Below, one piece after another: positions 15,570 to 51,639 of a DNA stretch of 51,639 bases. The notes under the pieces are model-generated. The model was not told the DNA's origin, did no database searches, and saw only the letters and a program-made list of their open reading frames with translations. Made by a program: the position numbers and the translations under genes. Where the stretch lies: positions 1 to 51,639 of the forward strand of contig NCBV01000011.1 of the NCBI GenBank assembly GCA_002279355.1. Direction: 5' to 3'. Origin of the DNA: Acidiphilium sp. 37-60-79 (GTDB taxonomy: Bacteria > Pseudomonadota > Alphaproteobacteria > Acetobacterales > Acetobacteraceae). Position 1 is the stretch's first letter. The number at the start of each line of letters is the position of its first letter.

Positions 15570-15630
15570 GGTCGGTTGCTTGGTCATCAAATCGGCGTGC
15601 CGAAGCAACCAGCGCCGCAAACCGCACGCA

Positions 15631-15661
<31 letters not shown>

Positions 15662-48333: not shown

Positions 48334-49074
48334 ATGCCGCACCAAAATCCACCACCCCACGCCACCGCCGCCCTCGTGCTGTTCTCTGGCGGCCAAGACA
48401 GCGCCACCTGCCTCGCCGATGCGCTGGCCCGCTATCAGCGTGTCGAGACCATCGGATTTTTCTACGGCCAGCGCCACGAGATTGAAATCGATTGCCGCGC
48501 CCCGCTGCGCAGCGCCATCGCCGCCGCTTCACCCTTTGGCGACCGGCTCGGCGCGGACCATATGCTCAATATCGAACCCGCCCTCACCGCGCTCGGCGCC
48601 ACCGCGATGACCAGTGCGATGGAGATCACCGTCACCGAATCCGGCCTGCCCAGCACCTTCGTGCCCGGCCGCAACCTGCTGTTTCTCACCTACGCCGCCG
48701 CCCTCGCCTATCGGCGCGACCTGCACGCGCTGGTCGGCGGCATGTGCGAGACCGATTATTCCGGCTACCCTGATTGCCGTGCCACCACCATGGCGGCGAT
48801 GCAATCGGCGCTAACCCTCGGCCTTGACCGCCCCATCCTGATCGACACACCGCTGATGGGTCTCGACAAAGCAGCCACCTGGCGCCTCGCCGAGCGCCTC
48901 GGTGGACCGGCGATGATCGAGGCTATTCGCGTGCTCTCGCATAGCTGCTATCGGGGTGATCGCAGCCATCTCCATGGCTGGGGCTATGGCTGCGATGATT
49001 GTCCCGCCTGTGCATTGCGCAAATCGGGCTGGATGCGCTATCGAAATTCTTCCAACGCTGAGGCAGGCCAATAG
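48334..49074 (+). CDS. queC: 7-cyano-7-deazaguanine synthase QueC
   Basis: A 246-residue ATP-dependent amidoligase-type enzyme that converts 7-carboxy-7-deazaguanine to preQ0, the precursor of queuosine in tRNA. The PP-loop [18 protein letters not shown] is near residue 14, with [31 protein letters not shown] and [15 protein letters not shown] following. The zinc site is formed by HSCYRGD and [18 protein letters not shown] 48334 is the start that gives a normal-length protein; the open frame upstream lies antisense to the MoeB gene. Other que genes are not present. Confidence 0.95.
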
Positions 49075-49187
49075 AAATTGCATCCAGTCTATGGTATAAA
49101 ATGTATAAACTGCATCGCAGCGGCAAGCGTCGGCTGTCTGCCCGCTTTTGGGTCAATGACGCGTTGAGTGAATGGGTCTAGCGAATT

Positions 49188-50600
49188 ATGAAGGCGATTA
49201 ACTCCATCCGCATGGGCGGCGTCGATGTCCTGCCCCTGGTGGAGGGCGGCAAAGGCGTTGCTGTCTCGAATGGTCTCTCGGCCGGTCATTGGGCCGCCGC
49301 CGGTGGTGTTGGCACGATCAGCGCGGTCAATGCCGATAGCTACGATGCCAGCGGCCAGCCGATCCCGCAAATCTATCATGGCCGCACCCGGCGGGATCGC
49401 CATGAAGAACTCATCGCCTACGCGATCCAAGGCGGCATCGCCCAGGCCAAGCGCGCTTATGAATCCTCCAACGGCCAAGGCCGGATCAACGCCAATATCC
49501 TATGGGAAATGGGCGGCGCTGAGCGCGTGATCACCGGCGTTCTCGAGAGTGCCAAAGGCCTGATCAGCGGCATCACCTGCGGTGCGGGCATGCCCTATCG
49601 CCTCTCCGAAATCGCTGCCAAATTCAACGTGCATTATTACCCGATCATCTCCTCCGCCCGCGCCTTCAACGCGCTCTGGCGCCGCGCCTATCACCGCGTC
49701 TCCGACCTGCTCGGCGGGGTGGTTTATGAAGATCCCTGGCTTGCCGGTGGCCATAACGGCCTGTCGAACGGCGAGGACCCGACCAAGCCGGAAAGCCCGC
49801 TCCCGCGAGTAATCGCGCTGCGCAGACAAATGCGCGAATTCGGCCTCGGCGAAACCCCGATCATCATGGCGGGTGGTGTTTGGTGGCTCGAAGAATGGGA
49901 AGAATGGATCGATAATCCCGAGCTTGGCCCGATCGCCTTCCAATTCGGCACCCGCCCGCTGCTGACCCAGGAAAGCCCGATCAGCGAGGCATGGAAACAG
50001 CGCCTGCTCACCCTGCAAGAGGGCGATATTTTCCTCAATCGCTTCTCGCCCACCGGATTTTATTCCAGTGCGGTGAATAACGAGTTCATCGGCGATCTGC
50101 GCGCCCGTTCGGAGCGGCAAATCCCCTACACCACCGAACTCGTCGGCGAACATACCGCCGAACTGCCGATCGGTCCGCGTAGCCGCATCGTCTATGTCAC
50201 CCCAGGTGATCTCAACCGCGCCCGCACCTGGATCGCCGAAGGCTTTACCGAAGCCTTGCGCACCCCGGATCAAACCATGGTATTCGTCACCCCGGACGCA
50301 TCGGAAGACATAAGGCGCGATCAAGTTAATTGCATGGGCTGCCTCTCGCATTGCCGTTTCTCCAACTGGTCACAGGAAGGCCCGGATTACGATAATGGCA
50401 AAAAGGCCGATCCACGCAGCTTTTGCATCCAAAAAACCCTGCAAGACATCATCCATGATCACCATGATCCGGCCTCGGTCGATCACAATTTGATGTTCAG
50501 CGGTCATAATGGCTACCGCTTCGCGCGCGATCCGTTCTATTCTAATGGCTTCATTCCCTCGGTGAAGGAATTGGTCGAACGAATCATGACGGGACGTTGA
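49188..50600 (+). CDS. Nitronate monooxygenase-like flavoprotein with a four-Cys cluster
   Basis: A 470-residue FMN enzyme of the nitronate monooxygenase/enoyl-reductase barrel family. The N-terminal half fits the barrel (GGKGVAVSNGLSAGHWAAAG, GLISGITCGAGMPY, FNVHYYPIISSARAFNALWR, GHNG and IIMAGGVWWLEEWEEW, FGTRPLLTQESPIS). The last ~100 residues add a cysteine module: Cys382, Cys385 and Cys389 in NCMGCLSHCRF, then Cys413 in RSFCIQKTL, spacing that could bind a [4Fe-4S] cluster. Typical nitronate monooxygenases are shorter (about 320-380) and lack this. Substrate is unknown. It sits between queC and bpt, all on the plus strand, with a weak ribosome site. Confidence 0.8.
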   Translation: MKAINSIRMGGVDVLPLVEGGKGVAVSNGLSAGHWAAAGGVGTISAVNADSYDASGQPIPQIYHGRTRRDRHEELIAYAIQGGIAQAKRAYESSNGQGRINANILWEMGGAERVITGVLESAKGLISGITCGAGMPYRLSEIAAKFNVHYYPIISSARAFNALWRRAYHRVSDLLGGVVYEDPWLAGGHNGLSNGEDPTKPESPLPRVIALRRQMREFGLGETPIIMAGGVWWLEEWEEWIDNPELGPIAFQFGTRPLLTQESPISEAWKQRLLTLQEGDIFLNRFSPTGFYSSAVNNEFIGDLRARSERQIPYTTELVGEHTAELPIGPRSRIVYVTPGDLNRARTWIAEGFTEALRTPDQTMVFVTPDASEDIRRDQVNCMGCLSHCRFSNWSQEGPDYDNGKKADPRSFCIQKTLQDIIHDHHDPASVDHNLMFSGHNGYRFARDPFYSNGFIPSVKELVERIMTGR

Positions 50601-50694
50601 ACGATAGGGCATTGAACCATGACGATGCAGAGCGCCGCCTCCCGCGCCATCAACTCGGCGACCGCGTGAATCGTCACACGGGGCCGATGCGCGC

Positions 50695-50792
50695 ATGACC
50701 CACAGACCCCGTCAGGCGTAGCATGACCCACAGACCCCGTCAGGCGTAGCATGACCCACAGACCCCGTCAGGCGTAGCATGACCCACAGACC
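50695..50792 (+). repeat. 28-bp tandem repeat: three mini-ORFs leading into bpt
   Basis: Three exact copies of a 28-bp unit (50695-50722, 50723-50750, 50751-50778) are followed by its first 14 bases, which are the first codons of bpt. Each full copy reads ATG, seven codons (Thr-His-Arg-Pro-Arg-Gln-Ala) and TAG, then one C before the next ATG. Thus each mini-ORF stop is one base from the next start, and the last stop is one base from the bpt ATG. The peptide matches the start of Bpt (MTHRP), so the array probably arose by duplication of the gene's 5' end. Confidence 0.9.
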
Positions 50793-51564
50793 GCCGCAAT
50801 TCTTCTACACCACGGCCTCACTGCCTTGTCCCTATGTCGAAGGCCGGACCGAGCGAAAAGTCGTCACCGATCTGGCCGGACTCAACGCCGACTCCCTGCA
50901 TGACCGGCTTTCGCGCGGCGGGTTCCGGCGCAGCCATAATATCGCCTACGCCCCGGTCTGCCCCGGCTGCCGCTCCTGCATTCCAATCCGCATCCGCGCC
51001 GCCGAATTCATCCCCAGCCGCACCCAGCGCCGCATCGCCGCCGCCAATGCCGATCTGCACGCCTATGAAATGCCGCCGCGCGCCACCGGTGAACAATTTC
51101 TCCTGTTCCAACGCTATCAGCGCACCCGCCATGGCGAGGGCGATATGGCCGCGATGAGCTTTTATGATTATCGCGCCATGGTCGAAGACACCCCGATCGA
51201 AACCTGGTTGGTCGAGTTCCGCGACAAGGAAGACCGTCTCATCGGCGGCTGCCTGACCGATCGGCTGACCGATGGTCTCTCCGCCGTCTATTCCTTCTAC
51301 GCGCCGGAATTGCCGCGCCGCTCGCTCGGCACCCAAGCAATCCTCTGGCTGGTCTCGCGCGCGCAGGAGCTAAAACTCCCTTATGTCTATCTCGGCTACT
51401 GGGTGCCCGAAAGCCCGAAAATGGCCTATAAGGCCAAATTCAGTCAATCCGAAGTGCTGATCGGCAATAGCTGGATCGATCTCGCAGCCCAATCACATTT
51501 TCCCTCCGCCACCATAGCGCACCAACCGCTCGCGGTGCCCAGCGCACCGATGTCCACCGGCTGA
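50779..51564 (+). CDS. bpt: Aspartate/glutamate leucyltransferase
   Basis: A 261-residue aminoacyl-tRNA-protein transferase that attaches leucine to proteins beginning with Asp or Glu, marking them for ClpS-ClpAP degradation (N-degron pathway). Family segments are SLPCPYVEGRTERKVVTDL, GFRRSHNIAYAPVCPGCRSC (with CxxC), IRAAEFIPSRTQRRI, YQRTRHGEGDMAAMSFYDY and LGYWVPESPKMAYKAKF. The start is set at 50779 by homology to Bpt N-termini (MTHRPPQFFYTT); upstream ATGs in the repeat are in other frames or end at TAG. The ribosome site is only a weak AGG, seven bases before the ATG, within the repeat. No ClpS/ClpA gene is in the window. Confidence 0.93.
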   Translation: MTHRPPQFFYTTASLPCPYVEGRTERKVVTDLAGLNADSLHDRLSRGGFRRSHNIAYAPVCPGCRSCIPIRIRAAEFIPSRTQRRIAAANADLHAYEMPPRATGEQFLLFQRYQRTRHGEGDMAAMSFYDYRAMVEDTPIETWLVEFRDKEDRLIGGCLTDRLTDGLSAVYSFYAPELPRRSLGTQAILWLVSRAQELKLPYVYLGYWVPESPKMAYKAKFSQSEVLIGNSWIDLAAQSHFPSATIAHQPLAVPSAPMSTG

Positions 51565-51592
51565 GCAACCAGCCCCTTATCGGAGTTCACCC

Positions 51593-51639
51593 ATGCTACA
51601 CACCCCCCCCGCATTCCACCGCGCCGCCGCCTCGGTCAA
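51593..51639 (+). CDS. 5' end of a gene cut by the window edge
   Basis: ATG 51593 follows CGGAG at a suitable distance, 28 bp after the bpt stop. The visible 15 codons read MLHTPPAFHRAAASV. They include a run of eight C residues (51603-51610). The start looks real, but too little is present to name the product; a gamma-glutamyltransferase-like or other hydrolase start is possible but unsupported. Confidence 0.5.
   Translation, partial: MLHTPPAFHRAAASV

Follow-up and report, generated by a model that had tools for sequence, protein, structure and literature searches.

Near the end of the stretch of DNA analysed here, 51,639 nucleotides of Acidiphilium sp. 37-60-79 (contig NCBV01000011.1, positions 1 to 51,639; hereafter the window), lies a gene for an aminoacyl-tRNA-protein transferase. 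Its product matches the NCBIfam arginyltransferase NF002343 (E 1e-102) and we take the gene to be bpt, with a putative leucyltransferase activity. Between bpt and a nitronate-monooxygenase-like gene upstream, three identical 28-bp units lie head to tail and run directly into the start of bpt, which is itself a partial copy of the unit (Table 1). Each unit holds a complete frame of eight codons, from ATG to GCG, closed by TAG and followed by a single C, the only base between each stop and the next start (a gap of +1 at all three junctions). The initial annotation had described exactly this arrangement, and the coordinates and the repeat search bear it out.

Table 1. Features at the bpt start (positions in the window)
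Feature	Position	Strand	Description
Nitronate-monooxygenase-like gene (PF03060)	49188..50600	+	ends 94 nt 5' of unit 1
Three-codon frame MRA*	50687..50698	+	ATGCGCGCATGA; its TGA overlaps the ATG of unit 1 by 4 nt
Unit 1	50695..50722	+	ATGACCCACAGACCCCGTCAGGCGTAGC; mini-ORF MTHRPRQA, TAG (ends 50721), one spacer base
Unit 2	50723..50750	+	identical to unit 1; TAG ends 50749
Unit 3	50751..50778	+	identical to units 1 and 2; TAG ends 50777, one base 5' of the bpt ATG
Partial fourth copy	50779..50792	+	nt 1-14 of bpt; the next nine bases (R-Q-A codons) of the units and the sister species are missing
bpt-type aminoacyl-tRNA-protein transferase gene	50779..51564	+	261 aa; ATE_N and ATE_C domains

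The array is exact and unique. TRF reports it at 50693-50792 with period 28, 3.6 copies, 100% matches and a score of 200, which is the top score and the sole row with 100% matches among 17 rows from 329,467 bases (the window plus a genome sample of 277,828 bases). At up to three mismatches the unit occurs three times in the window and in none of 100 shuffles, so a chance origin is excluded; in the whole draft genome (3,069,660 bases) it is found at these three places only, and the reversed pattern, used as a control, nowhere. An exact 34-nt pattern had no match in the viral_contigs set. Other tandem repeats were seen elsewhere: TRF lists a GCAACG hexanucleotide (5.7 copies) at 15628-15661 of the window, and an 18-bp array (4.1 copies at 94%) lies at 9794-9866 of contig 16 of the same genome (G000, L119), outside the long ORFs called there.

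Could the repeat be an artefact? The draft consists of 98 contigs and is 96.34% complete, and about 850 nt separate the array from the end of its contig; an assembly error might have altered the copy number or created a repeat that does not exist. However, an array of 100 bp fits in single sequencing reads of usual length and a related copy stands at the same place in the separate assembly of a sister species (below), so that we consider such an error very unlikely.

The sister's start and the origin of the array

By its named bpt matches the genome belongs in or close to Acidiphilium, and we compared the genus with one genome per species. The first 24 nt of the unit, at up to three mismatches, were found in none of the 12 other genomes, and the array is thus present in one of 13. 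bpt was found in 11 of the 12 (G004, 88% complete, gave no match), and the DNA upstream of the gene was inspected in all 11. Anything similar to the array occurs there only in the nearest relative (G009, 93% protein identity; hereafter the sister), as a single decayed copy. The sister's locus, L005, and L034 (JAKBBY010000182.1) appear to be the same contig, with identical upstream DNA. Two other candidates were discarded: the score of an in-frame ATGACC 27 nt 5' of bpt in L013 and L041 (the latter A. iwatense) was reached by 2877 of 3000 shuffles, and that of a stretch upstream of bpt in L008 by 2970 of 3000.

The bpt start of the sister is MTYRSRQAPQFFY, the gene beginning with MTYRSRQAPQFF (ATG ACC TAC CGA TCC CGT CAG GCA CCG CAG TTT), and the CGTCAGGC of the unit is found in it at the same place. 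The unit therefore keeps an older start, matching codons 1-8 of the sister type, and the present start of bpt in the window (MTHRPPQFF) is nine bases shorter. This refines an earlier proposal, that the units were copied from the start of bpt and that this start is a fourth, truncated copy: the origin is supported in the older form of the start, not the present one, and the identity with the gene as it now stands extends over 14 nt only. Because most of the other genus members inspected also have a short start (e.g. MTKPPQFFY in L013), the nine-base difference could reflect a less simple history, in which copies exchanged sequence.

Flush against the bpt ATG of the sister lies a 29-nt stretch, ATGACCGATCAATTACGTCAGATCGCCGC, which aligns ATG to ATG with the sister's own bpt start over 29 columns, 21 of them identical, with one gap (score 24). 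It ranks second of the 99 bpt loci listed, the array itself being first, and of 3000 dinucleotide shuffles 6 scored as high or higher, up to 30. We read it as a decayed copy of the bpt start, degenerate and seen in one genome pair. Since the sister carries this copy, the first duplication is probably older than the split between the two species. The last copying is recent, or the units were recently made alike, because they are identical while bpt in the window and the sister has diverged to dN 0.029 and dS 1.03. The neutral recent duplication that the initial annotation offered as its second explanation fits better than tuning of bpt by unit number, but recency would apply to the present identical array, and the first duplication may predate the split. 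Overall, the array is real and local, and probably recent.

To explain these features, we propose that the ancestral bpt start read M-T-(H/Y)-R-(P/S)-R-Q-A-P-Q-F-F-Y, and that slippage between two CGCA words, which stand at -3 and +25 of the sister's start, exactly 28 nt apart, could have produced an exact 28-nt copy. The words are weak evidence for this mechanism because any tandem duplication leaves such words at its borders. The ATG in the copy would have opened a frame other than that of bpt, until a TAG at the copy junction closed the copy into an eight-codon mini-ORF ending one base 5' of the next ATG. More slippage, or unequal exchange, would then have given three identical closed units, and the gene's own start would have lost nine bases. 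The duplication was presumably tolerated because the copies are closed. If so, a simple route is suggested by which upstream mini-ORFs arise from the start of a gene and are made harmless or useful.

Frames, weak starts and the expected output of bpt

All frames are interrupted by stops within the array; none is open across it, and therefore no single peptide can come from the whole array. Because 28 is not divisible by three, successive mini-ORFs could be linked only by termination-reinitiation, a point already made in the initial annotation that our analysis supports. A start at -28 lacking the stop would be read out of frame into bpt for 41 codons (122 nt). The TAG at the junction removes this run, and one of the 16 pairs of bases that can precede the G of that codon gives a stop. 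In the sister, the copy has one extra base (hence 29 nt), and translation begun at -29 would stop immediately at the TGA within the ATGA of the bpt start. The two lineages would thus have found two ways of putting the end of a mini-ORF onto the start of the gene, which is suggestive and no proof of selection, because frame alone would give the sister's arrangement about one time in three. One might go further and see start slippage as a source of new coupled upstream ORFs: a 28-nt duplication carrying a harmful out-of-frame start, neutralised by a stop codon in one sister lineage and by an extra base in the other, would have grown into a ladder of reinitiation whose length sets the output of the enzyme. 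We regard this scenario as doubtful.

Are the starts strong enough to be loaded independently? Predicted Shine-Dalgarno pairing is -2.5 kcal/mol for units 2 and 3 and for bpt, and -5.0 for unit 1, where a GGGG lies 12-15 nt from the ATG at 50695 and just before the ATG at 50687, with no strong Shine-Dalgarno sequence close by. The median of 39 ORFs of the window is -5.1, which as a yardstick errs on the strong side, since each ORF was represented by the best ATG among its first 40 codons. In the sister, pairing is absent at bpt (+0.4) and reaches -3.5 at the upstream copy. Because pairing is weak or absent at these gene starts, delivery of a ribosome that has just terminated could make a difference. 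The same GGGG stands just 5' of the frame MRA*, which could be a loading site of the mini-ORF chain.

The geometry would allow such an arrival. In E. coli, coupling is described as most efficient at stop-start distances of -4 to +3, although other studies reviewed in the same source differ (PMC12548453), and a spacing of about 20 nt is reported to have nearly abolished it (PMC10666635). With equal loading of all starts and a probability r of reinitiation, a relay of three units would bring to bpt 1 + r + r^2 + r^3 times the flow of one start. Units beyond the first thus add little unless r is high; at r 0.1 the third contributes about 0.1%.

That unit number may set the level of Bpt was the first suggestion of the initial annotation, and a selected copy-number tuner, in which the units form a ribosome antenna and output grows with their number according to the sum above, has points in its favour. 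The +1 gap falls in the efficient range of coupling (PMC12548453), leader genes have been proposed to act as a reinitiation 'antenna' (PMC4833913), a synthetic upstream ORF of at least 8-10 codons is reported to boost the next gene (PMC13255528) and the units have eight, and in the window and the sister alike the copied stretch ends at the bpt start, each in its own way. However, the published boost is described as requiring a strong ribosome binding site 5' of the target start (PMC13255528), where pairing here is weak, the gain from a third unit is minute at low r, and the array is confined to a single genome of the genus. In fact, the initial annotation had named a single unit or no repeat in all close relatives as the outcome that would speak against it, and its comparison upstream of bpt largely gave this result, with no unit in the 12 other genomes and one decayed copy in the nearest. 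Tuning of bpt by copy number is therefore unsupported, and we think it unlikely that the array is a selected tuner.

The units could also work in the opposite direction, as a sink for ribosomes. The spacing of 28 nt is about one ribosome footprint, which would make initiation at neighbouring starts exclusive, and identical starts competing with that of bpt would lower its output. The 20 nt 5' of the ATG are the same in units 2, 3 and bpt, the pairing of unit 1 is stronger than that of bpt, though at a long distance, and the AGA codon of each mini-ORF is rare (19 of 1209 arginine codons in the 39 mechanically called ORFs of the window) and might slow its translation. However, AGA also stands in the start of bpt itself, and stops that adjoin the next start favour hand-over of ribosomes; a sink seems quite unlikely to us.

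We favour, as reasonably probable, the reading that the array arose by local tandem duplication of the bpt translation start and that its closed copies would form a relay of mostly weak starts. Ribosomes initiating at any copy would terminate eight codons on, beside the next start, where they could reinitiate. Such a relay would be tolerated by bpt and may change its output modestly; under the relay model the effect should be small and could go in either direction. Should the units be translated, they would provide a natural set of identical starts, each in a different frame from the one before, with which successive reinitiation could be measured directly on one mRNA. If they are not, the array is a small neutral repeat.

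Likeness to known systems

The arrangement recalls several known classes of element. Coupled leader mini-ORFs (Korolev et al. 2016, PMC4833913; PMC12548453) and synthetic nfORFs (PMC13255528) are described as short frames directly 5' of a gene, with a stop at -4 to +3 of the next start and a possible role in ribosome delivery. Complete short frames on the same strand indeed stand 5' of bpt, with a stop-start distance of +1 at three junctions. The units here differ in that the gene supplied its own start as the template, copied three times in a row with a new frame each time. In addition, the exact unit is restricted to one genome of the 13 and a decayed copy with another reading is all the sister retains. 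Because conservation is thus lacking and translation is putative, we do not class the array as an established coupled leader mini-ORF. For predicted leader genes of Proteobacteria, spacings are reported to peak at about 10-13 bp (PMC4833913).

The nearest repeat analogue that we found is the MIRUs of mycobacteria, repeats containing small ORFs that are coupled to the start codon of the gene that follows (PMC12548453, PMC2734929). These are given as 40-100 bp long, present at 41 places in H37Rv, seemingly mobile and coupled at -4 nt (PMC12548453, PMC2734929). In contrast, the unit here measures 28 bp, derives from the adjacent gene and is spaced at +1: a small ORF ends at the start of the next gene as in MIRUs, in geometry only, and dispersal is not seen, all copies lying at one place in the 3.07-Mb draft at up to three mismatches. 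A further likeness is the tandem repeat before fpg1 of M. tuberculosis, between the upstream gene and the start codon (PMC2734929), discussed below. In the open literature searched, the titles and abstract openings of the matches listed describe no gene whose start has been copied in tandem in front of it.

Promoter-like sites and short frames before bpt

The nitronate-monooxygenase-like gene stands 5' of bpt in both the window and the sister, and by eye the other genus members inspected differ upstream. This shared gene order, and the finding of no terminator-like site in 50450-51000, suggest that bpt may be co-transcribed with the upstream gene in both species. The same region has two sigma-70-like sites of at least 9/12, against 0.2 in shuffles. 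One of them (9/12) is on the + strand, at 50482-50510 within the end of the upstream gene, and could serve bpt. RNA folding is ordinary, with z of 0.18 to 0.35 in four stretches of the window and -0.44 in the sister, and no Rfam match was found in 49000-51639 up to E 1. The ordinary fold, the lack of a terminator-like site in the region scanned and the lack of an Rfam match speak against an attenuator leader peptide or a known RNA element.

A role of the repeat at the level of DNA was also considered, since each unit holds a promoter-like pair (ATGACC, 18 nt, TAGCAT) with which the array would multiply transcription starts. By eye each hexamer matches at 4/6, and the length of the repeat before fpg1 is reported to go with the amount of mRNA across strains of M. 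tuberculosis (PMC2734929), whereas the array here is known from a single genome. Many relatives, moreover, have a promoter-like box near the bpt start (see below). However, the array contains no site of at least 9/12, the sole one on the + strand in 50450-51000 being that at the end of the upstream gene, and the box is absent within 120 nt of bpt both here and in the sister. We judge such a role highly improbable.

Of 380 bpt matches found in one search 80 were kept, and the set for the wider family comprised 110 loci (L004-L113). Of these, 11 were dropped because their DNA at the gene start duplicated that of another locus, leaving 99 in which near-identical ones remain. The bpt start of each was set by rule rather than from annotation, as the most downstream in-frame ATG near the start of the match or, failing that, GTG or TTG. 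In 30 of the 99 listed loci, the window and the sister included, a short frame (15 codons or fewer) ends no more than 5 nt from the bpt start; mononucleotide shuffles gave 6.7. A TTGAC or TTGAT, which sequence and place suggest to be part of a promoter, stands 30-62 nt 5' of bpt in 71 of the 99 distinct listed loci, against 2.5 in shuffles. We therefore discarded a conserved, family-wide mini-ORF before bpt, as 24 of the 30 short frames overlap or precede this box: in 19 loci the box is followed after 18-28 nt by the upstream ATG, which falls on or close to the -10 position, and in five the ATG precedes the box by 4 nt. With their ATG in or before the box, these short frames are probably not in the mRNA. 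Six loci are free of such overlap, the window and the sister among them. In the loci that have the box, its placement is such that transcription may begin at the bpt start or a few bases 5' of it, as in leaderless or nearly leaderless mRNA.
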